From NCBI GenBank assembly GCA_963402885.1, contig OY727097.1, positions 17,670,001 to 17,734,000 on the forward strand: a DNA stretch of 64,000 bases, read 5' to 3'. The DNA is from Antedon bifida (Eukaryota; Echinodermata; Crinoidea; Comatulida; Antedonidae). Both the position numbers and the translations under genes were made by a program. The notes beneath the pieces are model-generated. The model saw only the letters and a program-made list of their open reading frames with translations. It ran no database searches and was not told where the DNA came from. The number at the start of each line of letters is the position of its first letter. Within the stretch, counting starts at the first letter, position 1. Below are positions 1-64,000 of the stretch, piece by piece.

Positions 1-40
1 CAATTTTAAAACAATAGAAACGGTAAAGCAAAGAAAGCGG

Positions 41-226
41 ATGACACTTTAATGATTTGTCGGTATGAAATTAAAACTTCCAATACTATTACAAACAACT
101 AGCATTTAAATTTAGTTGATATGAAAATATGTTTGAGAATAGACTACAGTTACTGTAAGTTACAGAAGATTATATTACCATTTACATTATGACACTGTAA
201 CTGAATATAAATACCAGAATGACACT
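41..226 (+). promoter_or_regulatory. ATGACACT elements upstream of U1
   Basis: The octamer ATGACACT occurs three times on the + strand before U1: 41-48, 189-196 and 219-226. The last lies at -63 to -56 from the U1 start, where animal snRNA genes carry their proximal sequence element, so about 219-240 is the best PSE candidate. The core sequence is species-specific in animals and cannot be confirmed here. The same spacing recurs in every unit. Confidence 0.35.
146..165. repeat. Overlapping short palindromes (ACTGTAA elements)
   Basis: Two inverted repeats overlap: ACAGT-T-ACTGT (146-156) and CTGTAA-G-TTACAG (153-165). A further CTGTAACTG follows at 195-203, and two copies of AAGTACTGTAA lie inside the - strand gene's intron at 1232-1242 and 1249-1259. 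This may be a binding-site family serving the shared promoter; function is inferred only. Confidence 0.35.
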
Positions 227-281
227 TGTACAACAATACCAAGCCAATATCTCAGCTAAGAACGTGGTATGGCGTTTAAGC

Positions 282-447
282 ATACTTACCTGGCACAGGA
301 GCGACTTTGATCAGGAAGGAATGTCCTCCCAAGATGAGGCCTCGGCATTGCACACACGGCTGCGGTTGACCCTTGCGATTCCCCCAAACGTGGGGAACTC
401 GGGTGTATAATTTATGGTAGCGGGGGACTGCGTTCGCGCTAACCCCC
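282..447 (+). ncRNA. RNU1: U1 snRNA, copy 1
   Basis: U1 RNA of the U1 snRNP, which recognises 5' splice sites. The 166-nt length fits the family (human 164). Numbering from 282: nt 1-11 ATACTTACCTG is the splice-donor-pairing 5' end; stem-loop I (about 17-48) has the loop GATCAGGAAG for U1-70K; stem-loop II has the loop ATTGCAC (66-72) for U1A/SNF, followed by ACAC where vertebrates have TCC; stem-loop III pairs 98-103 with 111-116; the Sm site AATTTATGG is at 409-417; stem-loop IV (422-447) is a G5/C5 stem topped by GCG-TTCG-CGC. The first base is set by homology, the 3' end by the closing C run. All functional elements are intact, so it should be expressible. Confidence 0.97.
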
Positions 448-779
448 AATTCGACATTAATATTAGATAGCCTATGCAGTTCACGATAATCGTTAGGTTA
501 ATTAAGAACACTTGATATATAACTATTTATGGTTACATTATCTGTTAAGAAACTTTGTTGGTTTGTAACTATATTTATTTTTCCTTTACAACTGTTGGTA
601 TAGAATATTAACATGCATTGAACGCTTCATGATTATTTCGAAGAATAATATCAATTATAGGCTCAAACTCTAGATTAAACAACATAAAGTAGTCTATTAT
701 AGAACTTATACTTATTTAAATACTTTTATTATTATATTTCATTTACAATATGTATTAAATGGTATTTAATTATAGATAT
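448..779. other. Convergent spacer between U1 and the - strand gene
   Basis: About 330 bp of A+T-rich sequence between the two convergent 3' ends. Beyond the 3' box I see no gene. It holds the 18-bp insertion site (after about 730 in this unit, which lacks the insert). A 24-codon + ORF at 529-603 is compatible with chance. Confidence 0.6.
459..467 (+). terminator. Candidate snRNA 3' box
   Basis: AATATTAGA begins 12 nt after the U1 3' end and matches eight of nine bases of the AAARNNAGA half of the vertebrate snRNA 3' box, at the usual 9-19 nt spacing. It would direct Integrator-dependent 3' processing. It is present after every U1 copy that I checked. Confidence 0.4.
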
Positions 780-789
780 TTTATTTATT
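780..789 (-). terminator. Tandem poly(A) signals overlapping the stop codon
   Basis: Read on the - strand, AATAAA occurs at 789-784 and again at 785-780. The first shares its leading base with the TAA stop (791-789). If used, the 3' UTR would be only some 15-35 nt, leaving no coding sequence beyond the signal. This supports the - strand gene as a genuine Pol II transcription unit. Confidence 0.55.
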
Positions 790-2094: not shown

Positions 2095-2260
2095 ATACTT
2101 ACCTGGCACAGGAGCGACTTTGATCAGGAAGGAATGTCCTCCCAAGATGAGGCCTCGGCATTGCACACACGGCTGCGGTTGACCCTTGCGATTCCCCCAA
2201 ACGTGGGGAACTCGGGTGTATAATTTATGGTAGCGGGGGACTGCGTTCGCGCTAACCCCC
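2095..2260 (+). ncRNA. RNU1: U1 snRNA, copy 2
   Basis: Reads the same as copy 1. It is the divergent partner of the unit-1 protein gene. Confidence 0.96.
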
Positions 2261-2601
2261 AATTCGACATTAATATTAGATAGCCTATGCAGTTCACGAT
2301 AATCGTTAGGTTAATTAAGAACACTTGATATATAACTATTTATGGTTACATTATCTGTTAAGAAACTTTGTTGGTTTGTAACTATATTTATTTTTCCTTT
2401 ACAACTGTTGGTATAGAATATTAACATGCATTGAACGCTTCATGATTATTTCGAAGAATAATATCAATTATAGGCTCAAACTCTAGATTAAACAACATAA
2501 AGTAGTCTATTATAGAACTTATACTTATTTAAATACTTTTATTATTATATTTCATTTACAATATGTATTAAATGCTATTTAATTATAGATATTTTATTTA
2601 T

Positions 2602-3356
2602 TTACATGTCATATTGTTCTTGTCGAAGAAGTTTGGCGATAGAAAACCTTTGACATTTTACACTCAATGATGAAGACGTAGTATGTACACCGTTTAATTG
2701 TTCTGTTTCAGTTTGTAAGCAATGTTGTTTTTCGCCATTTCTATCGCTGCAATTCAAGTGGTTTATGGATTGGAGATCTAGCTCCATCGGTGCATTGCGT
2801 GATATCGTATACAGGTATGCCACCCACTCGTTGTAAGTGTTGGATGTTACGTGGTACTTCGTTCCATTCACTATAATGATATATGGCAGATAGTATTGCC
2901 AACCGTCTGTCAATCGATACCTATAACAAGAAAACAAACTTATTTATTAATAATGATGATCATGTAAATAAATAATAAGGATGATAATCAATGGTATTTC
3001 TGTTAAAATTACAAATGTAGGGAGCATTATTAAGTAAAATGACAAAGTACTGTAACCGAATAAGTACTGTAAGTAAGTTGCAGGCAGTGAGTTTTATTTA
3101 AGAAAAGGTTATTACAAATAATGCGTTACCTGTAAAGGCCAACATAGTTATTGCAATGAATAAGTTGGTTTAATAATGTAAATCACATACCTGTGTCTGT
3201 CAACCTTTTCGATATACGGAGATTCACTGAAGATCTGACGAACGCATTCTCTGACATTCCTCATGTTATACTTCTCCGGACAAATTGTATCAATAATATG
3301 CAGCACGTTTAGAGAACCGCTGGTAGTATCTGGACAACGGAGAAGAGCCGCCACAA
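2602..3356 (-). pseudogene. Array gene, copy 2, 5' end deleted
   Basis: Exon 2 (2602-2920) and the intron (2921-3190) are normal, but exon 1 stops at 3356: its first 67 nt, including the ATG, are lost in a 266-bp deletion whose ends share ACAA. The frame can continue upstream only to a TTG, so no normal start remains. Confidence 0.8.
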
Positions 3357-3362
3357 TAAACA
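3351..3362. other. 266-bp deletion junction
   Basis: CCACAA of exon 1 joins TAAACAAT of the next unit's start. The missing segment equals 1544-1809 of unit 1: the start of the protein gene, its 5' region and the GC-richer patch. U1 copy 3 keeps 285 bp of its usual upstream sequence. Confidence 0.85.
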
Positions 3363-3641
3363 ATTTTAAAACAATAGAAACGGTAAAGCAAAGAAAGCGG
3401 ATGACACTTTAATGATTTGTCGGTATGAAATTAAAACTTCCAATACTATTACAAACAACTAGCATTTAAATTTAGTTGATATGAAAATATGTTTGAGAAT
3501 AGACTACAGTTACTGTAAGTTACAGAAGATTATATTACCATTTACATTATGACACTGTAACTGAATATAAATACCAGAATGACACTTGTACAACAATACC
3601 AAGCCAATATCTCAGCTAAGAACGTGGTATGGCGTTTAAGC

Positions 3642-3807
3642 ATACTTACCTGGCACAGGAGCGACTTTGATCAGGAAGGAATGTCCTCCCAAGATGAGGC
3701 CTCGGCATTGCACACACGGCTGCGGTTGACCCTTGCGATTCCCCCAAACGTGGGGAACTCGGGTGTATAATTTATGGTAGCGGGGGACTGCGTTCGCGCT
3801 AACCCCC
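3642..3807 (+). ncRNA. RNU1: U1 snRNA, copy 3
   Basis: Same sequence as copy 1; its upstream region is shortened by the preceding deletion but the candidate PSE is intact. Confidence 0.96.
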
Positions 3808-4148
3808 AATTCGACATTAATATTAGATAGCCTATGCAGTTCACGATAATCGTTAGGTTAATTAAGAACACTTGATATATAACTATTTATGGTTACATTA
3901 TCTGTTAAGAAACTTTGTTGGTTTGTAACTATATTTATTTTTCCTTTACAACTGTTGGTATAGAATATTAACATGCATTGAACGCTTCATGATTATTTCG
4001 AAGAATAATATCAATTATAGGCTCAAACTCTAGATTAAACAACATAAAGTAGTCTATTATAGAACTTATACTTATTTAAATACTTTTATTATTATATTTC
4101 ATTTACAATATGTATTAAATGCTATTTAATTATAGATATTTTATTTAT

Positions 4149-4970
4149 TTACATGTCATATTGTTCTTGTCGAAGAAGTTTGGCGATAGAAAACCTTTGA
4201 CATTTTACACTCAATGATGAAGACGTAGTATGTACACCGTTTAATTGTTCTGTTTCAGTTTGTAAGCAATGTTGTTTTTCGCCATTTCTATCGCTGCAAT
4301 TCAAGTGGTTTATGGATTGGAGATCTAGCTCCATCGGTGCATTGCGTGATATCGTATACAGGTATGCCACCCACTCGTTGTAAGTGTTGGATGTTACGTG
4401 GTACTTCGTTCCATTCACTATAATGATATATGGCAGATAGTATTGCCAACCGTCTGTCAATCGATACCTATAACAAGAAAACAAACTTATTTATTAATAA
4501 TGATGATCATGTAAATAAATAATAAGGATGATAATCAATGGTATTTCTGTTAAAATTACAAATGTAGGGAGCATTATTAAGTAAAATGACAAAGTACTGT
4601 AACCGAATAAGTACTGTAAGTAAGTTGCAGGCAGTGAGTTTTATTTAAGAAAAGGTTATTACAAATAATGCGTTACCTGTAAAGGCCAACATAGTTATTG
4701 CAATGAATAAGTTGGTTTAATAATGTAAATCACATACCTGTGTCTGTCAACCTTTTCGATATACGGAGATTCACTGAAGATCTGACGAACGCATTCTCTG
4801 ACATTCCTCATGTTATACTTCTCCGGACAAATTGTATCAATAATATGCAGCACGTTTAGAGAACCGCTGGTAGTATCTGGACAACGGAGAAGAGCCGCCA
4901 CAACAAGTTCTTGAAATGATAGAGGCATCATCAATGTATCGGTGAGATCGGAGAACATCATGCAAGACAT
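4149..4970 (-). CDS. Array gene, copy 3
   Basis: Exon 1 4738-4970, exon 2 4149-4467. Intact; predicted protein the same as copy 1. Lineage A (270-nt intron). Confidence 0.6.
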
Positions 4971-5454
4971 ATTTAGGTTACTCGTAGTTCGGATAATAGT
5001 CGAATGGTAGCTTTTCAGATAATTCAGTTGACTTTAATAGTTGAATGCCGTAGAAATCAAAGGCACACCATTTTAAAAATGTCTTTGTTGGTTAGATATT
5101 AATGAAAGAACAAGAAAAACACAATAGAAACAATGGCTGCGTTGAGTAACGCGGGCGCAATCGCAACAATAAACAATTTTAAAACAATAGAAACGGTAAA
5201 GCAAAGAAAGCGGATGACACTTTAATGATTTGTCGGTATGAAATTAAAACTTCCAATACTATTACAAACAACTAGCATTTAAATTTAGTTGATATGAAAA
5301 TATGTTTGAGAATAGACTACAGTTACTGTAAGTTACAGAAGATTATATTACCATTTACATTATGACACTGTAACTGAATATAAATACCAGAATGACACTT
5401 GTACAACAATACCAAGCCAATATCTCAGCTAAGAACGTGGTATGGCGTTTAAGC

Positions 5455-5620
5455 ATACTTACCTGGCACAGGAGCGACTTTGATCAGGAAGGAATGTCCT
5501 CCCAAGATGAGGCCTCGGCATTGCACACACGGCTGCGGTTGACCCTTGCGATTCCCCCAAACGTGGGGAACTCGGGTGTATAATTTATGGTAGCGGGGGA
5601 CTGCGTTCGCGCTAACCCCC
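5455..5620 (+). ncRNA. RNU1: U1 snRNA, copy 4
   Basis: Same as copy 1; unit of 1813 bp. Confidence 0.96.
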
Positions 5621-5961
5621 AATTCGACATTAATATTAGATAGCCTATGCAGTTCACGATAATCGTTAGGTTAATTAAGAACACTTGATATATAACTATT
5701 TATGGTTACATTATCTGTTAAGAAACTTTGTTGGTTTGTAACTATATTTATTTTTCCTTTACAACTGTTGGTATAGAATATTAACATGCATTGAACGCTT
5801 CATGATTATTTCGAAGAATAATATCAATTATAGGCTCAAACTCTAGATTAAACAACATAAAGTAGTCTATTATAGAACTTATACTTATTTAAATACTTTT
5901 ATTATTATATTTCATTTACAATATGTATTAAATGGTATTTAATTATAGATATTTTATTTAT

Positions 5962-6783
5962 TTACATGTCATATTGTTCTTGTCGAAGAAGTTTGGCGAT
6001 AGAAAACCTTTGACATTTTACACTCAATGATGAAGACGTAGTATGTACACCGTTTAATTGTTCTGTTTCAGTTTGTAAGCAATGTTGTTTTTCGCCATTT
6101 CTATCGCTGCAATTCAAGTGGTTTATGGATTGGAGATCTAGCTCCATCGGTGCATTGCGTGATATCGTATACAGGTATGCCACCCACTCGTTGTAAGTGT
6201 TGGATGTTACGTGGTACTTCGTTCCATTCACTATAATGATATATGGCAGATAGTATTGCCAACCGTCTGTCAATCGATACCTATAACAAGAAAACAAACT
6301 TATTTATTAATAATGATGATCATGTAAATAAATAATAAGGATGATAATCAATGGTATTTCTGTTAAAATTACAAATGTAGGGAGCATTATTAAGTAAAAT
6401 GACAAAGTACTGTAACCGAATAAGTACTGTAAGTAAGTTGCAGGCAGTGAGTTTTATTTAAGAAAAGGTTATTACAAATAATGCGTTACCTGTAAAGGCC
6501 AACATAGTTATTGCAATGAATAAGTTGGTTTAATAATGTAAATCACATACCTGTGTCTGTCAACCTTTTCGATATACGGAGATTCACTGAAGATCTGACG
6601 AACGCATTCTCTGACATTCCTCATGTTATACTTCTCCGGACAAATTGTATCAATAATATGCAGCACGTTTAGAGAACCGCTGGTAGTATCTGGACAACGG
6701 AGAAGAGCCGCCACAACAAGTTCTTGAAATGATAGAGGCATCATCAATGTATCGGTGAGATCGGAGAACATCATGCAAGACAT
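5962..6783 (-). CDS. Array gene, copy 4
   Basis: Exon 1 6551-6783, exon 2 5962-6280. Intact, lineage A, protein as copy 1. Confidence 0.6.
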
Positions 6784-7267
6784 ATTTAGGTTACTCGTAG
6801 TTCGGATAATAGTCGAATGGTAGCTTTTCAGATAATTCAGTTGACTTTAATAGTTGAATGCCGTAGAAATCAAAGGCACACCATTTTAAAAATGTCTTTG
6901 TTGGTTAGATATTAATGAAAGAACAAGAAAAACACAATAGAAACAATGGCTGCGTTGAGTAACGCGGGCGCAATCGCAACAATAAACAATTTTAAAACAA
7001 TAGAAACGGTAAAGCAAAGAAAGCGGATGACACTTTAATGATTTGTCGGTATGAAATTAAAACTTCCAATACTATTACAAACAACTAGCATTTAAATTTA
7101 GTTGATATGAAAATATGTTTGAGAATAGACTACAGTTACTGTAAGTTACAGAAGATTATATTACCATTTACATTATGACACTGTAACTGAATATAAATAC
7201 CAGAATGACACTTGTACAACAATACCAAGCCAATATCTCAGCTAAGAACGTGGTATGGCGTTTAAGC

Positions 7268-7433
7268 ATACTTACCTGGCACAGGAGCGACTTTGATCAG
7301 GAAGGAATGTCCTCCCAAGATGAGGCCTCGGCATTGCACACACGGCTGCGGTTGACCCTTGCGATTCCCCCAAACGTGGGGAACTCGGGTGTATAATTTA
7401 TGGTAGCGGGGGACTGCGTTCGCGCTAACCCCC
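7268..7433 (+). ncRNA. RNU1: U1 snRNA, copy 5
   Basis: Same as copy 1; last of the opening run of units lacking the 18-bp insert. Confidence 0.96.
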
Positions 7434-7774
7434 AATTCGACATTAATATTAGATAGCCTATGCAGTTCACGATAATCGTTAGGTTAATTAAGAACACTTG
7501 ATATATAACTATTTATGGTTACATTATCTGTTAAGAAACTTTGTTGGTTTGTAACTATATTTATTTTTCCTTTACAACTGTTGGTATAGAATATTAACAT
7601 GCATTGAACGCTTCATGATTATTTCGAAGAATAATATCAATTATAGGCTCAAACTCTAGATTAAACAACATAAAGTAGTCTATTATAGAACTTATACTTA
7701 TTTAAATACTTTTATTATTATATTTCATTTACAATATGTATTAAATGCTATTTAATTATAGATATTTTATTTAT

Positions 7775-8596
7775 TTACATGTCATATTGTTCTTGTCGAA
7801 GAAGTTTGGCGATAGAAAACCTTTGACATTTTACACTCAATGATGAAGACGTAGTATGTACACCGTTTAATTGTTCTGTTTCAGTTTGTAAGCAATGTTG
7901 TTTTTCGCCATTTCTATCGCTGCAATTCAAGTGGTTTATGGATTGGAGATCTAGCTCCATCGGTGCATTGCGTGATATCGTATACAGGTATGCCACCCAC
8001 TCGTTGTAAGTGTTGGATGTTACGTGGTACTTCGTTCCATTCACTATAATGATATATGGCAGATAGTATTGCCAACCGTCTGTCAATCGATACCTATAAC
8101 AAGAAAACAAACTTATTTATTAATAATGATGATCATGTAAATAAATAATAAGGATGATAATCAATGGTATTTCTGTTAAAATTACAAATGTAGGGAGCAT
8201 TATTAAGTAAAATGACAAAGTACTGTAACCGAATAAGTACTGTAAGTAAGTTGCAGGCAGTGAGTTTTATTTAAGAAAAGGTTATTACAAATAATGCGTT
8301 ACCTGTAAAGGCCAACATAGTTATTGCAATGAATAAGTTGGTTTAATAATGTAAATCACATACCTGTGTCTGTCAACCTTTTCGATATACGGAGATTCAC
8401 TGAAGATCTGACGAACGCATTCTCTGACATTCCTCATGTTATACTTCTCCGGACAAATTGTATCAATAATATGCAGCACGTTTAGAGAACCGCTGGTAGT
8501 ATCTGGACAACGGAGAAGAGCCGCCACAACAAGTTCTTGAAATGATAGAGGCATCATCAATGTATCGGTGAGATCGGAGAACATCATGCAAGACAT
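7775..8596 (-). CDS. Array gene, copy 5
   Basis: Exon 1 8364-8596, exon 2 7775-8093. Intact, lineage A. Upstream carries TAAAAATC instead of TAGAAATC, shared with units 7 and 8. Confidence 0.6.
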
Positions 8597-9080
8597 ATTT
8601 AGGTTACTCGTAGTTCGGATAATAGTCGAATGGTAGCTTTTCAGATAATTCAGTTGACTTTAATAGTTGAATGCCGTAAAAATCAAAGGCACACCATTTT
8701 AAAAATGTCTTTGTTGGTTAGATATTAATGAAAGAACAAGAAAAACACAATAGAAACAATGGCTGCGTTGAGTAACGCGGGCGCAATCGCAACAATAAAC
8801 AATTTTAAAACAATAGAAACGGTAAAGCAAAGAAAGCGGATGACACTTTAATGATTTGTCGGTATGAAATTAAAACTTCCAATACTATTACAAACAACTA
8901 GCATTTAAATTTAGTTGATATGAAAATATGTTTGAGAATAGACTACAGTTACTGTAAGTTACAGAAGATTATATTACCATTTACATTATGACACTGTAAC
9001 TGAATATAAATACCAGAATGACACTTGTACAACAATACCAAGCCAATATCTCAGCTAAGAACGTGGTATGGCGTTTAAGC

Positions 9081-9246
9081 ATACTTACCTGGCACAGGAG
9101 CGACTTTGATCAGGAAGGAATGTCCTCCCAAGATGAGGCCTCGGCATTGCACACACGGCTGCGGTTGACCCTTGCGATTCCCCCAAACGTGGGGAACTCG
9201 GGTGTATAATTTATGGTAGCGGGGGACTGCGTTCGCGCTAACCCCC
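9081..9246 (+). ncRNA. RNU1: U1 snRNA, copy 6
   Basis: Same as copy 1; first unit with the 18-bp insert in the downstream spacer. Confidence 0.96.
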
Positions 9247-9530
9247 AATTCGACATTAATATTAGATAGCCTATGCAGTTCACGATAATCGTTAGGTTAA
9301 TTAAGAACACTTGATATATAACTATTTATGGTTACATTATCTGTTAAGAAACTTTGTTGGTTTGTAACTATATTTATTTTTCCTTTACAACTGTTGGTAT
9401 AGAATATTAACATGCATTGAACGCTTCATGATTATTTCGAAGAATAATATCAATTATAGGCTCAAACTCTAGATTAAACAACATAAAGTAGTCTATTATA
9501 GAACTTATACTTATTTAAATACTTTTATTA

Positions 9531-9548
9531 CTTTCTGTTAAACGATAA
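9531..9548. other. 18-bp insertion/deletion polymorphism
   Basis: CTTTCTGTTAAACGATAA is present here and in units 8-36 but absent from units 1-5 and 7. Flanks are A+T-rich; placement is ambiguous by a base or two. It explains the 1813 versus 1830/1831 bp unit lengths. Confidence 0.85.
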
Positions 9549-9605
9549 TTATATTTCATTTACAATATGTATTAAATGCTATTTAATTATAGATATTTTA
9601 TTTAT

Positions 9606-10426
9606 TTACATGTCATATTGTTCTTGTCGAAGAAGTTTGGCGATAGAAAACCTTTGACATTTTACACTCAATGATGAAGACGTAGTATGTACACCGTTTA
9701 ATTGTTCTGTTTCAGTTTGTAAGCAATGTTGTTTTTCGCCATTTCTATCGCTGCAATTCAAGTGGTTTATGGATTGGAGATCTAGCTCCATCGGTGCATT
9801 GCGTGATATCGTATACAGGTATGCCACCCACTCGTTGTAAGTGTTGGATGTTACGTGGTACTTCGTTCCATTCACTATAATGATATATGGCAGATAGTAT
9901 TGCCAACCGTCTGTCAATCGATACCTATAACAAGAAAACAAACTTATTTATTAATAATGATGATCATGTAAATAAATAATAAGGATGATAATCAATGGTA
10001 TTTCTGTTAAAATTACAAATGTAGGGAGCATTATTAAGTAAAATGACAAAGTACTGTAACCGAATAAGTACTGTAAGTAAGTTGCAGGCAGTGAGTTTTA
10101 TTTAAGAAAAGGTTATTACAAATAATGCGTTACCTGTAAAGGCCAACATAGTTATTGCAATGAATAAGTTGGTTAATAATGTAAATCACATACCTGTGTC
10201 TGTCAACCTTTTCGATATACGGTGATTCACTGAAGATCTGACGAACGCATTCTCTGACATTCCTCATGTTATACTTCTCCGGACAAATTGTATCAATAAT
10301 ATGCAGCACGTTTAGAGAACCGCTGGTAGTATCTGGACAACGGAGAAGAGCCGCCACAACAAGTTCTTGAAATGATAGAGGCATCATCAATGTATCGGTG
10401 AGATCGGAGAACATCATGCAAGACAT
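9606..10426 (-). CDS. Array gene, copy 6
   Basis: Exon 1 10194-10426, exon 2 9606-9924. Intact, first lineage-B copy: intron 269 nt (one T fewer) and a silent TCA for TCT at Ser68. The alternative donor would add 20 residues in frame. Confidence 0.6.
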
Positions 10427-10910
10427 ATTTAGGTTACTCGTAGTTCGGATAATAGTCGAATGGTAGCTTTTCAGATAATTCAGTTGACTTTAATAGTTGA
10501 ATGCCGTAGAAATCAAAGGCACACCATTTTAAAAATGTCTTTGTTGGTTAGATATTAATGAAAGAACAAGAAAAACACAATAGAAACAATGGCTGCGTTG
10601 AGTAACGCGGGCGCAATCGCAACAATAAACAATTTTAAAACAATAGAAACGGTAAAGCAAAGAAAGCGGATGACACTTTAATGATTTGTCGGTATGAAAT
10701 TAAAACTTCCAATACTATTACAAACAACTAGCATTTAAATTTAGTTGATATGAAAATATGTTTGAGAATAGACTACAGTTACTGTAAGTTACAGAAGATT
10801 ATATTACCATTTACATTATGACACTGTAACTGAATATAAATACCAGAATGACACTTGTACAACAATACCAAGCCAATATCTCAGCTAAGAACGTGGTATG
10901 GCGTTTAAGC

Positions 10911-11076
10911 ATACTTACCTGGCACAGGAGCGACTTTGATCAGGAAGGAATGTCCTTCCAAGATGAGGCCTCGGCATTGCACACACGGCTGCGGTTGACC
11001 CTTGCGATTCCCCCAAACGTGGGGAACTCGGGTGTATAATTTATGGTAGCGGGGGACTGCGTTCGCGCTAACCCCC
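10911..11076 (+). ncRNA. RNU1: U1 snRNA, copy 7 (C47T variant)
   Basis: One change, C to T at 10957 (nt 47), on the 3' side of stem-loop I. In my fold G18-C47 becomes a G-U wobble, so the stem should survive. All other elements match copy 1. Confidence 0.95.
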
Positions 11077-11417
11077 AATTCGACATTAATATTAGATAGC
11101 CTATGCAGTTCACGATAATCGTTAGGTTAATTAAGAACACTTGATATATAACTATTTATGGTTACATTATCTGTTAAGAAACTTTGTTGGTTTGTAACTA
11201 TATTTATTTTTCCTTTACAACTGTTGGTATAGAATATTAACATGCATTGAACGCTTCATGATTATTTCGAAGAATAATATCAATTATAGGCTCAAACTCT
11301 AGATTAAACAACATAAAGTAGTCTATTATAGAACTTATACTTATTTAAATACTTTTATTATTATATTTCATTTACAATATGTATTAAATGCTATTTAATT
11401 ATAGATATTTTATTTAT

Positions 11418-38053: not shown

Positions 38054-38086
38054 AATTCGACATTAATATTAGATAGCCTATGCAGT

Positions 38087-52058: not shown

Positions 52059-52224
52059 ATACTTACCTGGCACAGGAGCGACTTTGATCAGGAAGGAATG
52101 TCCTCCCAAGATGAGGCCTCGGCATTGCACACACGGCTGCGGTTGACCCTTGCGATTCCCCCAAACGTGGGGAACTCGGGTGTATAATTTATGGTAGCGG
52201 GGGACTGCGTTCGCGCTAACCCCC
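52059..52224 (+). ncRNA. RNU1: U1 snRNA, copy 30
   Basis: Same as copy 1; CCTATACAG spacer variant downstream. Confidence 0.96.
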
Positions 52225-52583
52225 AATTCGACATTAATATTAGATAGCCTATACAGTTCACGATAATCGTTAGGTTAATTAAGAACACTTGATATATAAC
52301 TATTTATGGTTACATTATCTGTTAAGAAACTTTGTTGGTTTGTAACTATATTTATTTTTCCTTTACAACTTTTGGTATAGAATATTAACATGCATTGAAC
52401 GCTTCATGATTATTTCGAAGAATAATATCAATTATAGGCTCAAACTCTAGATTAAACAACATAAAGTAGTCTATTATAGAACTTATACTTATTTAAATAC
52501 TTTTATTACTTTCTGTTAAACGATAATTATATTTCATTTACAATATGTATTAAATGCTATTTAATTATAGATATTTTATTTAT

Positions 52584-53405
52584 TTACATGTCATATTGTT
52601 CTTGTCGAAGAAGTTTGGCGATAGAAAACCTTTGACATTTTACACTCAATGATGAAGACGTAGTATGTACACCGTTTAATTGTTCTGTTTCAGTTTGTAA
52701 GCAATGTTGTTTTTCGCCATTTCTATCGCTGCAATTCAAGTGGTTTATGGATTGGAGATCTAGCTCCATCGGTGCATTGCGTGATATCGTATACAGGTAT
52801 GCCACCCACTCGTTGTAAGTGTTGGATGTTACGTGGTACTTCGTTCCATTCACTATAATGATATATGGCAGATAGTATTGCCAACCGTCTGTCAATCGAT
52901 ACCTATAACAAGAAAACAAACTTATTTATTAATAATGATGATCATGTAAATAAATAATAAGGATGATAATCAATGGTATTTCTGTTAAAATTACAAATGT
53001 AGGGAGCATTATTAAGTAAAATGACAAAGTACTGTAACCGAATAAGTACTGTAAGTAAGTTGCAGGCAGTGAGTTTTATTTAAGAAAAGGTTATTACAAA
53101 TAATGCGTTACCTGTAAAGGCCAACATAGTTATTGCAATGAATAAGTTGGTTTAATAATGTAAATCACATACCTGTGTCTGTCAACCTTTTCGATATACG
53201 GAGATTCACTGAAGATCTGACGAACGCATTCTCTGACATTCCTCATGTTATACTTCTCCGGACAAATTGTATCAATAATATGCAGCACGTTTAGAGAACC
53301 GCTGGTAGTATCTGGACAACGGAGAAGAGCCGCCACAACAAGTTCTTGAAATGATAGAGGCATCATCAATGTATCGGTGAGATCGGAGAACATCATGCAA
53401 GACAT
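52584..53405 (-). CDS. Array gene, copy 30
   Basis: Exon 1 53173-53405, exon 2 52584-52902. Intact, lineage A. Confidence 0.6.
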
Positions 53406-53889
53406 ATTTAGGTTACTCGTAGTTCGGATAATAGTCGAATGGTAGCTTTTCAGATAATTCAGTTGACTTTAATAGTTGAATGCCGTAGAAATCAAAGGCA
53501 CACCATTTTAAAAATGTCTTTGTTGGTTAGATATTAATGAAAGAACAAGAAAAACACAATAGAAACAATGGCTGCGTTGAGTAACGCGGGCGCAATCGCA
53601 ACAATAAACAATTTTAAAACAATAGAAACGGTAAAGCAAAGAAAGCGGATGACACTTTAATGATTTGTCGGTATGAAATTAAAACTTCCAATACTATTAC
53701 AAACAACTAGCATTTAAATTTAGTTGATATGAAAATATGTTTGAGAATAGACTACAGTTACTGTAAGTTACAGAAGATTATATTACCATTTACATTATGA
53801 CACTGTAACTGAATATAAATACCAGAATGACACTTGTACAACAATACCAAGCCAATATCTCAGCTAAGAACGTGGTATGGCGTTTAAGC

Positions 53890-54055
53890 ATACTTACCTG
53901 GCACAGGAGCGACTTTGATCAGGAAGGAATGTCCTCCCAAGATGAGGCCTCGGCATTGCACACACGGCTGCGGTTGACCCTTGCGATTCCCCCAAACGTG
54001 GGGAACTCGGGTGTATAATTTATGGTAGCGGGGGACTGCGTTCGCGCTAACCCCC
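53890..54055 (+). ncRNA. RNU1: U1 snRNA, copy 31
   Basis: Same as copy 1. Confidence 0.96.
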
Positions 54056-54414
54056 AATTCGACATTAATATTAGATAGCCTATGCAGTTCACGATAATCG
54101 TTAGGTTAATTAAGAACACTTGATATATAACTATTTATGGTTACATTATCTGTTAAGAAACTTTGTTGGTTTGTAACTATATTTATTTTTCCTTTACAAC
54201 TTTTGGTATAGAATATTAACATGCATTGAACGCTTCATGATTATTTCGAAGAATAATATCAATTATAGGCTCAAACTCTAGATTAAACAACATAAAGTAG
54301 TCTATTATAGAACTTATACTTATTTAAATACTTTTATTACTTTCTGTTAAACGATAATTATATTTCATTTACAATATGTATTAAATGCTATTTAAATATA
54401 GATATTTTATTTAT

Positions 54415-55236
54415 TTACATGTCATATTGTTCTTGTCGAAGAAGTTTGGCGATAGAAAACCTTTGACATTTTACACTCAATGATGAAGACGTAGTATGTA
54501 CAACGTTTAATTGTTCTGTTTCAGTTTGTAAGCAATGTTGTTTTTCGCCATTTCTATCGCTGCAATTCAAGTGGTTTATGGATTGAAGATCTAGCTCCAT
54601 CGGTGCATTGCGTGATATCGTATACAGGTATGCCACCCACTCGTTGTAAGTGTTGGATGTTACGTGGTACTTCGTTCCATTCACTATAATGATATATGGC
54701 AGATAGTATTGCCAACCGTCTGTCAATCGATACCTATAACAAGAAAACAAACTTATTTATTAATAATGATGATCATGTAAATAAATAATAAGGATGATAA
54801 TCAATGGTATTTCTGTTAAAATTACAAATGTAGGGAGCATTATTAAGTAAAATGACAAAGTACTGTAACCGAATAAGTACTGTAAGTAAGTTGCAGGCAG
54901 TGAGTTTTATTTAAGAAAAGGTTATTACAAATAATGCGTTACCTGTAAAGGCCAACATAGTTATTGCAATGAATAAGTTGGTTTAATAATGTAAATCACA
55001 TACCTGTGTCTGTCAACCTTTTCGATATACGGAGATTCACTGAAGATCTGACGAACGCATTCTCTGACATTCCTCATGTTATACTTCTCCGGACAAATTG
55101 TATCAATAATATGCAGCACGTTTAGAGAACCGCTGGTAGTATCTGGACAACGGAGAAGAGCCGCCACAACAAGTTCTTGAAATGATAGAGGCATCATCAA
55201 TGTATCGGTGAGATCGGAGAACATCATGATAGACAT
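54415..55236 (-). CDS. Array gene, copy 31 (C3I, G155V)
   Basis: Exon 1 55004-55236, exon 2 54415-54733. Intact, lineage A. Cys3 is Ile by two adjacent base changes, and the 5' flank has CTCGTCG; both are shared only with copy 35. Confidence 0.6.
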
Positions 55237-55720
55237 ATTTAGGTTACTCGTCGTTCGGATAATAGTCGAATGGTAGCTTTTCAGATAATTCAGTTGACTT
55301 TAATAGTTGAATGCCGTAGAAATCAAATGCACACCATTTTAAAAATGTCTTTGTTGGTTAGATATTAATGAAAGAACAAGAAAAACACAATAGAAACAAT
55401 GGCTGCGTTGAGTAACGCGGGCGCAATCGCAACAATAAACAATTTTAAAACAATAGAAACGGTAAAGCAAAAAAAGCGGATGACACTTTAATGATTTGTC
55501 GGTATGAAATTAAAACTTCCAATACTATTACAAACAACTAGCATTTAAATTTAGTTGATATGAAAATATGTTTGAGAATAGACTACAGTTACTGTAAGTT
55601 ACAGAAGATTATCTTACCATTTACATTATGACACTGTAACTGAATATAAATACCAGAATGACACTTGTACAACAATACCAAGCCAATATCTCAGCTAAGA
55701 ACGTGGTATGGCGTTTAAGC

Positions 55721-55886
55721 ATACTTACCTGGCACAGGAGCGACTTTGATCAGGAAGGAATGTCCTCCCAAGATGAGGCCTCGGCATTGCACACACGGCT
55801 GCGGTTGACCCTTGCGATTCCCCCAAACGTGGGGAACTCGGGTGTATAATTTATGGTAGCGGGGGACTGCGTTCGCGCTAACCCCC
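55721..55886 (+). ncRNA. RNU1: U1 snRNA, copy 32
   Basis: Same as copy 1; upstream has ATCTTACC for ATATTACC about 109 bp before the start. Confidence 0.96.
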
Positions 55887-56245
55887 AATTCGACATTAAT
55901 ATTAGATAGCCTATGCAGTTCACGATAATCGTTAGGTTAATTAAGAACACTTGATATATAACTATTTATGGTTACATTATCTGTTAAGAAACTTTGTTGG
56001 TTTGTAACTATATTTATTTTTCCTTTACAACTGTTGGTATAGAATATTAACATGCATTGAACGCTTCATGATTATTTCGAAGAATAATATCAATTATAGG
56101 CTCAAACTCTAGATTAAACAACATAAAGTAGTCTATTATAGAACTTATACTTATTTAAATACTTTTATTACTTTCTGTTAAACGATAATTATATTTCATT
56201 TACAATATGTATTAAATGCTATTTAATTATAGATATTTTATTTAT

Positions 56246-56932
56246 TTACATGTCATATTGTTCTTGTCGAAGAAGTTTGGCGATAGAAAACCTTTGACAT
56301 TTTACACTCAATGATGAAGACGTAGTATGTACACCGTTTAATTGTTCTGTTTCAGTTTGTAAGCAATGTTGTTTTTCGCCATTTCTATCGCTGCAATTCA
56401 AGTGGTTTATGGATTGGAGATCTAGCTCCATCGGTGCATTGCGTGATATCGTATACAGGTATGCCACCCACTCGTTGTAAGAGTTGGATGTTACGTGGTA
56501 CTTCGTTCCATTCACTATAATGATATATGGCAGATAGTATTGCCAACCGTCTGTCAATCGATACCTATAACAAGAAAACAAACTTATTTATTAATAATGA
56601 TGATCATGTAAATAAATAATAAGGATGATAATCAATGGTATTTCTGTTAAAATTACAAATGTAGGGAGCATTATTAAGTAAAATGACAAAGTACTGTAAC
56701 CGAATAAGTACTGTAAGTAAGTTGCAGGCAGTGAGTTTTATTTAAGAAAAGGTTATTACAAATAATGCGTTACCTGTAAAGGCCAACATAGTTATTGCAA
56801 TGAATAAGTTGGTTTAATAATGTAAATCACATACCTGTGTCTGTCAACCTTTTCGATATACGGAGATTCACTGAAGATCTGACGAACGCATTCTCTGACA
56901 TGATTCCTCATGTTATACTTCTCCGGTGAGAT
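56246..56932 (-). pseudogene. Array gene, copy 32, exon 1 mostly deleted
   Basis: Exon 2 (56246-56564, T106S) and the intron (56565-56834) are normal. Exon 1 begins at 56835 but two deletions (116 and 62 bp) remove its 5' half and ATG, and TGA is inserted near 56901, giving a 1656-bp unit. Confidence 0.8.
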
Positions 56933-57376
56933 CTTTTCAGATAATTCAGTTGACTTTAATAGTTGAATGCCGTAGAAATCAAAGGCACACCATTTTAAAA
57001 ATGTCTTTGTTGGTTAGATATTAATGAAAGAACAAGAAAAACACAATAGAAACAATGGCTGCGTTGAGTAACGCGGGCGCAATCGCAACAATAAACAGTT
57101 TTAAAACAATAGAAACGGTAAAGCAAAGAAAGCGGATGACACTTTAATGATTTGTCGGTATGAAATTAAAACTTCCAATACTATTACAAACAACTAGCAT
57201 TTAAATTTAGTTGATATGAAAATATGTTTGAGAATAGACTACAGTTACTGTAAGTTACAGAAGATTATATTACCATTTACATTATGACACTGTAACTGAA
57301 TATAAATACCAGAATGACACTTGTACAACAATACCAAGCCAATATCTCAGCTAAGAACGTGGTATGGCGTTTAAGC

Positions 57377-57542
57377 ATACTTACCTGGCACAGGAGCGAC
57401 TTTGATCAGGAAGGAATGTCCTCCCAAGATGAGGCCTCGGCATTGCACACACGGCTGCGGTTGACCCTTGCGATTCCCCCAAACGTGGGGAACTCGGGTG
57501 TATAATTTATGGTAGCGGGGGACTGCGTTCGCGCTAACCCCC
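57377..57542 (+). ncRNA. RNU1: U1 snRNA, copy 33
   Basis: Same as copy 1. Confidence 0.96.
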
Positions 57543-57901
57543 AATTCGACATTAATATTAGATAGCCTATGCAGTTCACGATAATCGTTAGGTTAATTAA
57601 GAACACTTGATATATAACTATTTATGGTTACATTATCTGTTAAGAAACTTTGTTGGTTTGTAACTATATTTATTTTTCCTTTACAACTGTTGGTATAGAA
57701 TATTAACATGCATTGAACGCTTCATGATTATTTTGAAGAATAATATCAATTATAGGCTCAAACTCTAGATTAAACAACATAAAGTAGTCTATTATAGAAC
57801 TTATACTTATTTAAATACTTTTATTACTTTCTGTTAAACGATAATTATATTTCATTTACAATATGTATTAAATGCTATTTAATTATAGATATTTTATTTA
57901 T

Positions 57902-58722
57902 TTACATGTCATATTGTTCTTGTCGAAGAAGTTTGGCGATAGAAAACCTTTGACATTTTACACTCAATGATGAAGACGTAGTATGTACACCGTTTAATTG
58001 TTCTGTTTCAGTTTGTAAGCAATGTTGTTTTTCGCCATTTCTATCGCTGCAATTCAAGTGGTTTATGGATTGGAGATCTAGCTCCATCGGTGCATTGCGT
58101 GATATCGTATACAGGTATGCCACCCACTCGTTGTAAGTGTTGGATGTTACGTGGTACTTCGTTCCATTCACTATAATGATATATGGCAGATAGTATTGCC
58201 AACCGTCTGTCAATCGATACCTATAACAAGAAAACAAACTTATTTATTAATAATGATGATCATGTAAATAAATAATAAGGATGATAATCAATGGTATTTC
58301 TGTTAAAATTACAAATGTAGGGAGCATTATTAAGTAAAATGACAAAGTACTGTAACCGAATAAGTACTGTAAGTAAGTTGCAGGCAGTGAGTTTTATTTA
58401 AGAAAAGGTTATTACAAATAATGCGTTACCTGTAAAGGCCAACATAGTTATTGCAATGAATAAGTTGGTTAATAATGTAAATCACATACCTGTGTCTGTC
58501 AACCTTTTCGATATACGGTGATTCACTGAAGATCTGACGAACGCATTCTCTGACATTCCTCATGTTATACTTCTCCGGACAAATTGTATCAATAATATGC
58601 AGCACGTTTAGAGAACCGCTGGTAGTATCTGGACAACGGAAAAGAGCCGCCACAACAAGTTCTTGAAATGATAGAGGCATCATCAATGTATCGGTGAGAT
58701 CGGAGAACATCATGCAAGACAT
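57902..58722 (-). CDS. Array gene, copy 33 (L28F)
   Basis: Exon 1 58490-58722, exon 2 57902-58220. Intact, lineage B; Leu28 to Phe in the first predicted helix. Confidence 0.58.
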
Positions 58723-59206
58723 ATTTAGGTTACTCGTAGTTCGGATAATAGTCGAATGGTAGCTTTTCAGATAATTCAGTTGACTTTAATAGTTGAATGC
58801 CGTAGAAATCAAAGGCACACCATTTTAAAAATGTCTTTGTTGGTTAGATATTAATGAAAGAACAAGAAAAACACAATAGAAACAATGGCTGCGTTGAGTA
58901 ACGCGGGCGCAATCGCAACAATAAACAGTTTTAAAACAATAGAAACGGTAAAGCAAAGAAAGCGGATGACACTTTAATGATTTGTCGGTATGAAATTAAA
59001 ACTTCCAATACTATTACAAACAACTAGCATTTAAATTTAGTTGATATGAAAATATGTTTGAGAATAGACTACAGTTACTGTAAGTTACAGAAGATTATAT
59101 TACCATTTTCATTATGACACTGTAACTGAATATAAATACCAGAATGACACTTGTACAACAATACCAAGCCAATATCTCAGCTAAGAACGTGGTATGGCGT
59201 TTAAGC

Positions 59207-59372
59207 ATACTTACCTGGCACAGGAGCGACTTTGATCAGGAAGGAATGTCCTCCCAAGATGAGGCCTCGGCATTGCACACACGGCTGCGGTTGACCCTTG
59301 CGATTCCCCCAAACGTGGGGAACTCGGGTGTATAATTTATGGTAGCGGGGGACTGCGTTCGCGCTAACCCCC
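59207..59372 (+). ncRNA. RNU1: U1 snRNA, copy 34
   Basis: Same as copy 1; upstream has TTTTCATTATG for TTTACATTATG beside the second ATGACACT element. Confidence 0.96.
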
Positions 59373-59732
59373 AATTCGACATTAATATTAGATAGCCTAT
59401 GCAGTTCACGATAATCGTTAGGTTAATTAAGAACACTTGATATATAACTATTTATGGTTACATTATCTGTTAAGAAACTTTGTTGGTTTGTAACTATATT
59501 TATTTTTCCTTTACAACTGTTGGTATAGAATATTACATTAGCATTGAACGCTTCATGATTATTTCGAAGAATAATATCAATTATAGGCTCAAACTCTAGA
59601 TTAAACTACATAAAGTAGTCTATTATAGAACTTATACTTATTTAAATACTTTTATTACTTTCTGTTAAACGATAATTATATTTCATTTACAATATGTATT
59701 AAATGCTATTTAATTATAGATATTTTATTTAT

Positions 59733-60554
59733 TTACATGTCATATTGTTCTTGTCGAAGAAGTTTGGCGATAGAAAACCTTTGACATTTTACACTCAATG
59801 ATGAAGACGTAGTATGTACACCGTTTAATTGTTCTGTTTCAGTTTGTAAGCAATGTTGTTTTTCGCCATTTCTATCGCTGCAATTCAAGTGGTTTATGGA
59901 TTGGAAATCTAGCTCCATCGGTGCATTGCGTGATATCGTATACAGGTATGCCACCCACTCGTTGTAAGTGTTGGATGTTACGTGGTACTTCGTTCCATTC
60001 ACTATAATGATATATGGCAGATAGTATTGCCAACCGTCTGTCAATCGATACCTATAACAAGAAAACAAACTTATTTATTAATAATGATGATCATGTAAAT
60101 AAATAATAAGGATGATAATCAATGGTATTTCTGTTAAAATTACAAATGTAGGGAGCATTATTAAGTAAAATGACAAAGTACTGTAACCGAATAAGTACTG
60201 TAAGTAAGTTGCAGGCAGTGAGTTTTATTTAAGAAAAGGTTATTACAAATAATGCGTTACCTGTAAAGGCCAACATAGTTATTGCAATGAATAAGTTGGT
60301 TTAATAATGTAAATCACATACCTGTGTCTGTCAACCTTTTCGATATACGGTGATTCACTGAAGATCTGACGAACGCATTCTCTGACATTCCTCATGTTAT
60401 ACTTCTCCGGACAAATTGTATCAATAATATGCAGCACGTTTAGAGAACCGCTGGTAGTATCTGGACAACGGAGAAGAGCCGCCACAGCAAGTTCTTGAAA
60501 TGATAGAGGCATCATCAATGTATCGGTGAGATCGGAGAACATCATGCAAGACAT
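59733..60554 (-). CDS. Array gene, copy 34 (V23A, L127F)
   Basis: Exon 1 60322-60554, exon 2 59733-60051. Intact; it joins a lineage-A intron to the lineage-B Ser68 codon, so a crossover lies within the roughly 45 bp between them. Confidence 0.58.
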
Positions 60555-61038
60555 ATTTAGGTTACTCGTAGTTCGGATAATAGTCGAATGGTAGCTTTTC
60601 AGATAATTCAGTTGACTTTAATAGTTGAATGCCGTAGAAATCAAAGGCACACCATTTTAAAAATGTCTTTGTTGGTTAGATATTAATGAAAGAACAAGAA
60701 AAACACAATAGAAACAATGGCTGCGTTGAGTAACGCGGGCGCAATCGCAACAATAAACAATTTTAAAACAATAGAAACGGTAAAGCAAAGAAAGCGGATG
60801 ACACTTTAATGATTTGTCGGTATGAAATTAAAACTTCCAATACTATTACAAACAACTAGCATTTAAATTTAGTTGATATGAAAATATGTTTGAGAATAGA
60901 CTACAGTTACTGTAAGTTACAGAAGATTATATTACCATTTACATTATGACACTGTAACTGAATATAAATACCAGAATGACACTTGTACAACAATACCAAG
61001 CCAATATCTCAGCTAAGAACGTGGTATGGCGTTTAAGC

Positions 61039-61204
61039 ATACTTACCTGGCACAGGAGCGACTTTGATCAGGAAGGAATGTCCTCCCAAGATGAGGCCTC
61101 GGCATTGCACACACGGCTGCGGTTGACCCTTGCGATTCCCCCAAACGTGGGGAACTCGGGTGTATAATTTATGGTAGCGGGGGACTGCGTTCGCGCTAAC
61201 CCCC
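61039..61204 (+). ncRNA. RNU1: U1 snRNA, copy 35
   Basis: Same as copy 1; followed by the duplicated spacer. Confidence 0.96.
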
Positions 61205-61350
61205 AATTCGACATTAATATTAGATAGCCTATGCAGTTCACGATAATCGTTAGGTTAATTAAGAACACTTGATATATAACTATTTATGGTTACATTATCT
61301 GTTAAGAAACTTTGTTGGTTTGTAACTATATTTATTTTTCCTTTACAACT

Positions 61351-62120
61351 GTTGGTATAGAATATTAACATGCATTGAACGCTTCATGATTATTTCGAAG
61401 AATATCAATTATAGGCTCAAACTCTAGATTAAACAAAATAAAGTAGTCTATTATAGAACTTATACTTATTTAAATACTTTTATTACTTTCTGTTAAACGA
61501 TAATTATATTTCATTTACAATATGTATTAAATGCTATTTAATTATAGATATTTTATTTATTTACATGTCATATTGTTCTTGTCGAAGAAGTTTGGCGATA
61601 GAAAACCTTTGACATTTTACACTCAATGATGAAGACGTAGTATGTACACCGTTTAATTGTTCTGTTTCAGTTTGTAAGCAATGTTGTTTTTCGCCATTTC
61701 TATCGCTGCAATTCAAGTGGTTTATGGATTGGAAATCTGTTGGTATAGAATATTAACATGCATTGAACGCTTCATGATTATTTCGAAGAATATCAATTAT
61801 AGGCTCAAACTCTAGATTAAACAAAATAAAGTAGTCTATTATAGAACTTATTTAAATACTTTTATTACTTTCTGTTAAACGATAATTATATTTCATTTAC
61901 AATATGTATTAAATGCTATTTAATTATAGATATTTTATTTATTTACATGTCATATTGTTCTTGTCGAAGAAGTTTGGCGATAGAAAACCTTTGACATTTT
62001 ACACTCAATGATGAAGACGTAGTATGTACACCGTTTAATTGTTCTGTTTCAGTTTGTAAGCAATGTTGTTTTTCGCCATTTCTATCGCTGCAATTCAAGT
62101 GGTTTATGGATTGGAGATCT
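61351..62120. repeat. Internal tandem duplication in unit 35
   Basis: Segment 61351-61738 (388 bp: spacer plus the 3' part of exon 2) is repeated at 61739-62120 (382 bp after a 6-bp loss). The junction shares only CT. The first copy carries the L127F allele and the second the usual allele, so it arose between two different units rather than by slippage. Confidence 0.85.
61561..61738 (-). pseudogene. Orphan exon 2 fragment in unit 35
   Basis: Last 178 bp of exon 2 with stop and poly(A) signals, L127F allele, without acceptor or exon 1; product of the duplication. It lies downstream of the complete copy 35 gene. Confidence 0.85.
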
Positions 62121-62764
62121 AGCTCCATCGGTGCATTGCGTGATATCGTATACAGGTATGCCACCCACTCGTTGTAAGTGTTGGATGTTAAGTGGTACTT
62201 CGTTCCATTCACTATAATGATATATGGCAGATAGTATTGCCAACCGTCTGTCAATCGATACCTATAACAAGAAAACAAACTTATTTATTAATAATGATGA
62301 TCATGTAAATAAATAATAAGGATGATAATCAATGGTATTTCTGTTAAAATTACAAATGTAGGGAGCATTATTAAGTAAAATGACAAAGTACTGTAACCGA
62401 ATAAGTACTGTAAGTAAGTTGCAGGCAGTGAGTTTTATTTAAGAAAAGGTTATTACAAATAATGCGTTACCTGTAAAGGCCAACATAGTTATTGCAATGA
62501 ATAAGTTGGTTTAATAATGTAAATCACATACCTGTGTCTGTCAACCTTTTCGATATACGGAGATTCACTGAAGATCTGACGAACGCATTCTCTGACATTC
62601 CTCATGTTATACTTCTCCGGACAAATTGTATCAATAATATGCAGCACGTTTAGAGAACCGCTGGTAGTATCTGGACAACGGAGAAGAGCCGCCACAACAA
62701 GTTCTTGAAATGATAGAGGCATCATCAATGTATCGGTGAGATCGGAGAACATCATGATAGACAT
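61943..62764 (-). CDS. Array gene, copy 35 (C3I, V102L)
   Basis: Exon 1 62532-62764, exon 2 61943-62261. Intact, lineage A; shares Ile3 and the CTCGTCG flank with copy 31. Confidence 0.58.
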
Positions 62765-63248
62765 ATTTAGGTTACTCGTCGTTCGGATAATAGTCGAATG
62801 GTAGCTTTTCAGATAATTCAGTTGACTTTAATAGTTGAATGCCGTAGAAATCAAAGGCACACCATTTTAAAAATGTCTTTGTTGGTTAGATATTAATGAA
62901 AGAACAAGAAAAACACAATAGAAACAATGGCTGCGTTGAGTAACGCGGGTGCAATCTCAACAATAAACAATTTTAAAACAATAGAAACGGTAAAGCAAAA
63001 AAAAGCGGATGACACTTTAATGATTTGTCGGTATGAAATTAAAACTTCCAATACTATTACAAACAACTAGATTTAAATTTAGTTGATATGAAAATATGTT
63101 TGAGAATAGACTACAGTTACTGTAAGTTACAGAAGATTATATTACCATTTACATTATGACACTGTAACTGAATATAAATACCAGAATGACACTTGTACAA
63201 CAATACCAAGCCAATATCTCAGCTAAGAACGTGGTATGGCGTTTAAGC

Positions 63249-63414
63249 ATACTTACCTGGCACAGGAGCGACTTTGATCAGGAAGGAATGTCCTCCCAAG
63301 ATGAGGCCTCGGCATTGCACACACGGCTGCGGTTGACCCTTGCGATTCCCCCAAACGTGGGGAACTCGGGTGTATAATTTATGGTAGCGGGGGACTGCGT
63401 TCGCGCTAACCCCC
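63249..63414 (+). ncRNA. RNU1: U1 snRNA, copy 36
   Basis: Same as copy 1. Upstream there is an extra A in the A run near 63000 and a lost C near 63071. Confidence 0.96.
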
Positions 63415-63774
63415 AATTCGACATTAATATTAGATAGCCTATGCAGTTCACGATAATCGTTAGGTTAATTAAGAACACTTGATATATAACTATTTATGGT
63501 TACATTATCTGTTAAGAAACTTTGTTGGTTTGTAACTATATTTATTTTTCCTTTACAACTGTTGGTATAGAATATTAACATGCATTGAACGCTTCATGAT
63601 TATTTCGAAGAATAATATCAATTATAGGCTCAAACTCTAGATTAAACAACATTAAAGTAGTCTATTATAGAACTTATACTTATTTAAATACTTTTATTAC
63701 TTTCTGTTAAACGATAATTATATTTCATTTACAATATGTATTAAATGCTATTTAATTATAGATATTTTATTTAT

Positions 63775-64000
63775 TTACATGTCATATTGTTCTTGTCGAA
63801 GAAGTTTGGCGATAGAAAACCTTTGACATTTTACACTCAATGATGAAGACGTAGTATGTACACCGTTTAATTGTTCTGTTTCAGTTTGTAAGCAATGTTG
63901 TTTTTCGCCATTTCTATCGCTGCAATTCAAGTGGTTTATGGATTGGAAATCTAGCTCCATCGGTGCATTGCGTGATATCGTATACAGGTATGCCACCCAC
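63775..64000 (-). CDS. Array gene, copy 36, cut by window end (L127F)
   Basis: 3' part of exon 2 only, with normal stop and poly(A) signals; the rest lies outside the window. Confidence 0.58.
   Translation of the reverse strand, partial: WVAYLYTISRNAPMELDFQSINHLNCSDRNGEKQHCLQTETEQLNGVHTTSSSLSVKCQRFSIAKLLRQEQYDM

Follow-up and report, generated by a model that had tools for sequence, protein, structure and literature searches.

A tandem U1 small nuclear RNA array of Antedon bifida with a divergent, spliced open reading frame in its units

The stretch of DNA analysed here (the window) comprises 64,000 nucleotides (nt) of the crinoid Antedon bifida (assembly GCA_963402885.1, contig OY727097.1, positions 17,670,001 to 17,734,000 of the forward strand) and consists of a single tandem array that is cut by both ends of the window. 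Every complete unit of this array contains a gene for the U1 small nuclear RNA (snRNA) and, on the opposite strand, all or part of a two-exon open reading frame (ORF) that faces away from the next U1 gene and, in its whole form, encodes a spliced product of 183 amino acids (aa). The explanation that we favour, and to which we give an about even chance of being right, is that a real small gene was trapped in the U1 spacer and was co-amplified with U1, copy number tying the two together. All positions below are those of the window.

Matches to the Rfam family RF00003 revealed 36 full-length U1 snRNA genes, all of them on the plus strand and aligned to positions 1-166 of the 166 of the model, with scores of 126-129 bits compared to a gathering score of 69.5. 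They agree with the family in sequence and secondary structure over the full length and are U1 spliceosomal snRNA genes. The copy of unit 1, used as the reference (282-448, plus strand, 128.9 bits), has the commonest sequence, to which 34 of the 36 copies are letter-identical; the remaining two show one base change each, at positions 47 and 50. The sequence common to these 34 copies includes ATACTTACCTG at the 5′ end, which we take to be the segment of U1 that pairs with 5′ splice sites, and ATAATTTATGG, presumably an Sm-site-like element. When other small RNAs were looked for in unit 1, the only match was a sub-threshold one to RT-3 (16.5 bits vs. 40.5).

The 36 U1 genes delimit 35 complete units, arranged head to tail and homogenised, of which 27 are distinct. 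Most of them (28/35) measure between 1813 and 1831 bp and two more 1832 and 1838 bp, with four shorter units (1357 bp twice, 1547 and 1656 bp) and a single longer one (2210 bp). Among all 35 units only 40 positions are substituted, plus a few indels. Exchange is visible in the array because of two internal repeats. The 5019-bp block made up of units 19-21 recurs as units 22-24 without a single mismatch (range 32265-43105; the exact match at an offset of 5019 bp has its first copy at 32265-38086), which may stem from unequal exchange in the recent past or from a duplication in the assembly; and unit 35 contains a tandem duplication of 382 bp (61349-62120, 98% match) that produced a second, partial exon 2. 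The 1813-bp units are distinguished from those of 1830 or 1831 bp by the absence of an 18-bp stretch located 3′ of U1, which units 1-5 and 7 lack and units 6 and 8-35 have, apart from 19 and 22, where wider deletions span its site. Units lacking this stretch are concentrated towards the left edge of the window.

The ORF was delimited on the minus strand of unit 1. Exon 1 (1378-1610, 233 nt) begins with an ATG at 1610, upstream of which an in-frame stop is found at 1676-1674, and ends two bases into a codon. It is followed by an intron of 270 nt (1108-1377, GTATGT...TTATAG) with a branch-point-like TATTAAT that starts 32 nt upstream of the intron end and two internal AATAAA, and then by exon 2 (789-1107, 319 nt including the stop codon). 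The stop is overlapped and followed by AATAAA signals on the same strand (789-784, 785-780 and 730-725), and in 33 of the 35 units an AATAAA is found no more than about 75 nt from the stop. Judged by eye, the donor CAG|GTATGT agrees at 8 of 9 bases with CAGGTAAGT, which is complementary to the 5′ end of U1; this GTATGT and the acceptor TTATAG are intact in 35/35 units. The GC content is 39 and 43% in the exons, 27% in the intron and 23 and 32% in the spacers, the lower of these last values, measured in the full-length unit 10, being that of the AT-rich spacer that lies between U1 and the gene on the side of their 3′ ends (449-788). The opposite spacer, of 484 bp, separates the ATG from the next U1 gene (1611-2094) and is the presumed site of both promoters. 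An earlier note, made from the sequence alone, had described a U1 array with a spliced ORF and had given the intron as 1108-1377, the start region as 1611-2094 and the product as 183 aa; the coordinates proved correct.

The probability that such an ORF appears by chance was assayed with shuffled sequences. On the minus strand of the spacer, the two longest stop-free stretches measure 113 and 112 aa and contain the two exons; none of 2000 shuffles had two stretches of at least 112 aa, and 24 had at least one. When the best spliced ORF on both strands was sought in dinucleotide shuffles, allowing donors with at least 8 of 9 matches, the maximum was 150 aa and 183 aa was reached in 0/1000; relaxing the donor requirement to 7 of 9 matches gave 142 aa and 0/1000. 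Keeping the dinucleotide make-up separately for exons, intron and spacers raised the maximum to 182 aa, with 0/3000 shuffles at 183 aa, and when the ATG and the junction were fixed and the exons shuffled, 0/20000 stayed open. Thus, an open frame across a GT-AG intron is present beyond what chance produces in these shuffles, which bears out the observation of the earlier note.

Regarding the state of the individual copies, all 35 complete units keep at least part of both exons, and the ORF is whole in 25 of them. Three kinds of damage account for the other 10: a stop at codon 68 (two units), a one-base insertion in exon 1 (six units, two of which additionally lack part of exon 2) and the loss of part of exon 1 (two units). 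The claim of the earlier note that every unit carries the gene was therefore too strong: it is right for the presence of both exons at least in part, and not for an unbroken ORF. Its interpretation, in which one promoter region would set the dosage of U1 and of the protein together, is supported in part. A real-looking spliced gene does lie divergently beside U1, whereas expression, a function and such a promoter common to both are as yet hypothetical, and a need for each copy is opposed by 10 broken copies and an apparently neutral variation.

This variation is one of several results that weigh against a working gene, together with the broken copies themselves. Thirteen of the 40 variable positions are coding, and 3/13 of the changes are synonymous (23% vs. 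21% expected, p = 0.74). The exons are as variable as the intron plus the spacers (13/552 vs. 25/1112 positions, p = 0.86), and the joined coding sequence showed no triplet periodicity, with 2239/5000 shuffles being equally asymmetric, a test that has little power on a frame of 552 nt. Taken by exon, codon-position asymmetry was borderline for exon 1 alone (p about 0.05) and absent for exon 2 (p = 0.77). The variation test is itself low in power, since U1, with 2/167 variable positions compared to 38/1664 in the rest of the unit (p = 0.58), is not significantly less variable than its surroundings, and since, with only 13 coding positions, redundancy and homogenisation would mask constraint even in a working multicopy gene.

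Searches with the product weigh in the same direction. Nothing near the cut-off was obtained with the profiles of Pfam and NCBIfam, nothing better than an expectation value (E) of 0.14 with PHROGs, and nothing convincing among the sequences of the PDB (best E 0.037). No relative was found by protein in viral and prokaryote contigs, which is weak evidence given that the host is a eukaryote; likewise, two U1 patterns in viral contigs and one in prokaryote contigs gave no match, with the same reservation. Among the collections searched for relatives only Pfam and the PDB are rich in eukaryote proteins. The 183-aa protein is thus placed in no family. AlphaFold models built without relatives were of low confidence too, with a mean pLDDT (predicted local distance difference test) of 51 for exon 1 plus intron read-through (91 aa) and of 39 for the exon 2 frame extended at its start by a few residues from the intron (113 aa).

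The exon 1 model, despite its low confidence, has a helix-helix-helix-strand-strand layout, which suggests that this part may form a small DNA-binding (winged-helix-like) domain whose last strand would be completed across the splice junction. When this model, the only one so compared, was searched against the PDB with Foldseek, the best match had an E of 5.2. Two candidate families were compared pairwise with the product and rejected: the forkhead domain (z = 1.6, with 38/500 shuffles as good, and no Pfam match) and the globular domain of the linker histone H1.0 (z = 0.7, with 113/500 shuffles as good).

The favoured explanation can be put together as follows. The array would be of the ordinary U1 type, homogenised by unequal exchange, and its ancestral unit would have had a small spliced gene in its spacer, where it either lay already or fell, and selection for U1 dose together with unequal exchange would have multiplied the pair. 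The outcome would be dozens of near-identical gene copies, most of them able to encode the 183-aa protein. The intact copies would most likely have their own promoter in 1611-2094, from which RNA polymerase II would transcribe them now or would have done so recently, and the transcript would be spliced at an ordinary U1-dependent donor. Expression, an own promoter, protein production and this order of events are what we infer. Shared copy number would tie U1 and the protein in dose, the gene being carried along by U1 amplification, and from the layout a promoter region shared by both genes is possible as well. The four shortened units (2, 19, 22 and 32) kept U1 and lost exon sequence, as expected if selection acts on U1, but these are three events at most, because units 19 and 22 go back to a single event, and so few cases prove nothing.

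The main rival to a trapped working gene holds that the ORF is a passenger: a gene or gene fragment that fell into the U1 spacer would have had an intact frame at the time of the expansion and would since have been decaying; only homogenisation for U1 would keep its copies alike, and the protein would not be needed. This is a serious alternative, though we think it somewhat improbable, and it accounts for the variation data no less well than a working gene. The 10/35 broken copies, the neutral ratio of coding changes, exons that vary like spacers and the loss of exon sequence in the four units that retain U1 are all in its favour, whereas 25/35 ORFs are still whole and both splice sites remain in 35/35 units; furthermore, redundancy and homogenisation could hide constraint from a test as weak as the one on variation. 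That the ORF belonged to a DNA transposon or to another mobile element inserted before the expansion seems unlikely to us. In such a case the arms at 689-771 and 1882-1960 would be terminal inverted repeats, and they do bracket the gene in inverted orientation and share 10 identical bases at their outer ends. However, they are only 67% alike over 84 columns, inverted pairs of equal score turned up in 7/150 global and 11/150 block shuffles, inspection by eye of positions 689 and 1960 revealed no target-site duplication, and the cut-off was not reached by any family. A length of 183 aa is also short for a transposase. A chance open frame in a non-coding spacer is comparably improbable: it would agree with the missing triplet periodicity of the joined coding sequence, with the absence of relatives and with neutral variation, but 183 aa was reached by none of the 1000 shuffles in either of two series and by none of the 3000 of the third, although the best of these 3000 came to 182 aa.

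A further, highly improbable reading would make the array a sensor of its own U1 dosage, with the protein, possibly DNA-binding, feeding back on the array. U1 suppresses early poly(A) sites. With ample U1, by a scheme that we consider very doubtful, the 5′ splice site would be bound and the intronic poly(A) signal suppressed, giving the full protein; with scarce U1 the transcript would end early, and a product of about 91 residues without the rest of the domain could conceivably result, which is just as doubtful. One intronic AATAAA does lie 92 nt past the 5′ splice site, but its presence proves nothing, as 1361/5000 shuffled introns contain AATAAA. A low number of intron substitutions is predicted by this reading, and the intron has the fewest of all segments (1/270 vs. 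39/1561 positions, p = 0.02, unadjusted for the choice of segment), a count that does not include the one-base change in intron length found in 15/35 units.

Arrays comparable in one aspect or another have been described, here considered as far as the accessible parts of the respective reports go. In Xenopus, U1 genes are likewise clustered in tens of copies, about 20 of them on chromosome 1 of X. tropicalis and, in X. laevis, 11 on 1L and about 35 on 1S (PMC10361878), and a protein gene in the U1 unit is not described in the accessible part of that report. Ten insect species (moths and one caddisfly) are reported to have 2-31 U1 genes per haploid genome (PMC8190105), so that the at least 36 copies of this single array exceed the insect range and come near the Xenopus numbers. 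Mixed arrays are represented by U1 with 5S in Astyanax (cited in PMC10361878), U1 with U2 in hake (PMC4696792) and histone genes with ribosomal DNA in the boll weevil (cited in PMC8190105). In these, two unrelated genes likewise share a unit or cluster and its copy number, but the partners are RNA or histone multigene families, high-dose genes in their own right, whereas the partner in Antedon bifida is a spliced gene not assigned to a family. The D4Z4/DUX4 and USP17 macrosatellites likewise have an ORF in each tandem unit, and to our knowledge these units do not include an snRNA gene. U1 clusters, mixed arrays and protein-coding macrosatellites are therefore already known, and it is the pairing of a U1 array with a spliced protein gene that is unusual; a protein gene within the repeat unit of a U1 array was not found described in the open literature, seen mostly as titles and beginnings of abstracts, and this does not prove that none exists.

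Expression of the gene would mean that one step alters the copy number of a core splicing RNA together with that of an unrelated protein, and in arrays of this sort, as they grow and contract, the tolerance of gene dosage would be put to a natural test. Should the ORF be a passenger instead, selection on an RNA gene next to it would have amplified a protein gene dozens of times. In both cases genome annotation may report dozens of protein "paralogues" which actually belong to an snRNA array.

The remaining units are located as follows, each with its limits and then the positions of U1 (plus strand), exon 2 and exon 1 (minus strand). Starting from the left, whole ORFs are found in unit 3 (3642-5454; 3642-3808, 4149-4467 and 4738-4970), unit 4 (5455-7267; 5455-5621, 5962-6280 and 6551-6783), unit 5 (7268-9080; 7268-7434, 7775-8093 and 8364-8596), unit 6 (9081-10910; 9081-9247, 9606-9924 and 10194-10426) and unit 7 (10911-12723; 10911-11077, 11418-11736 and 12007-12239), the U1 gene of the last differing by one base. 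Whole ORFs follow in unit 8 (12724-14553; 12724-12890, 13249-13567 and 13837-14069), unit 9 (14554-16384; 14554-14720, 15079-15397 and 15668-15900) and, with the replacement T148S, unit 10 (16385-18215; 16385-16551, 16910-17228 and 17499-17731). Further whole copies without a noted replacement are those of unit 14 (23707-25544; 23707-23873, 24240-24558 and 24828-25060), unit 17 (29207-31037; 29207-29373, 29732-30050 and 30321-30553), unit 21 (36057-37887; 36057-36223, 36582-36900 and 37171-37403), unit 24 (41076-42906; 41076-41242, 41601-41919 and 42190-42422), unit 25 (42907-44736; 42907-43073, 43432-43750 and 44020-44252), unit 27 (46567-48396; 46567-46733, 47092-47410 and 47680-47912) and unit 30 (52059-53889; 52059-52225, 52584-52902 and 53173-53405).

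The replacement G155V is found in the otherwise whole copies of unit 15 (25545-27375; 25545-25711, 26070-26388 and 26659-26891), unit 20 (34226-36056; 34226-34392, 34751-35069 and 35340-35572), unit 23 (39245-41075; 39245-39411, 39770-40088 and 40359-40591), unit 26 (44737-46566; 44737-44903, 45262-45580 and 45850-46082) and unit 28 (48397-50227; 48397-48563, 48922-49240 and 49511-49743), and together with C3I in unit 31 (53890-55720; 53890-54056, 54415-54733 and 55004-55236). Unit 33 (57377-59206; 57377-57543, 57902-58220 and 58490-58722) is whole with L28F, unit 34 (59207-61038; 59207-59373, 59733-60051 and 60322-60554) with V23A and L127F, and the 2210-bp unit 35 (61039-63248; 61039-61205, 61943-62261 and 62532-62764) with C3I and V102L, its extra partial exon 2 from the 382-bp duplication being at 61561-61738.

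As for the broken copies, the stop at codon 68 is shared by unit 11 (18216-20045; 18216-18382, 18741-19059 and 19329-19561), whose U1 gene differs by one base, and unit 12 (20046-21875; 20046-20212, 20571-20889 and 21159-21391). Frameshifts are found in unit 13 (21876-23706; 21876-22042, 22401-22719 and 22989-23222), unit 16 (27376-29206; 27376-27542, 27901-28219 and 28489-28722), unit 18 (31038-32868; 31038-31204, 31563-31881 and 32151-32384) and unit 29 (50228-52058; 50228-50394, 50753-51071 and 51341-51574), and also in the 1357-bp unit 19 (32869-34225; 32869-33035, 33067-33238 and 33508-33741), where exon 2 is cut, and in unit 22, of the same length and identical to it (37888-39244; 37888-38054, 38086-38257 and 38527-38760). 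In unit 2 (2095-3641; 2095-2261, 2602-2920 and 3191-3356) the 5′ part of exon 1 is deleted, and in unit 32 (55721-57376; 55721-55887, 56246-56564 and 56835-56926) exon 1 is cut. Unit 36, which lies outside the 35 counted, starts at 63249 and is present up to position 64000, with U1 at 63249-63415 and an exon 2 (63775-64000) cut by the end of the window.

Two minor features of the unit were also detected. The motif ACTGTAAC(C/T)GAATA occurs in the intron (1236-1249) and again at 2007-2020, 75-88 bases before U1, with 13 of 14 bases alike, and is possibly a promoter motif or else a chance resemblance (E 3.1). In addition, at 1311-1330 on the minus strand of the intron, CCTTTACAG is directly followed by GTAACG, so that, judged by eye, acceptor-like and donor-like sequences abut in the manner of recursive splice sites; use of this site as an acceptor would lead to an immediate in-frame stop.

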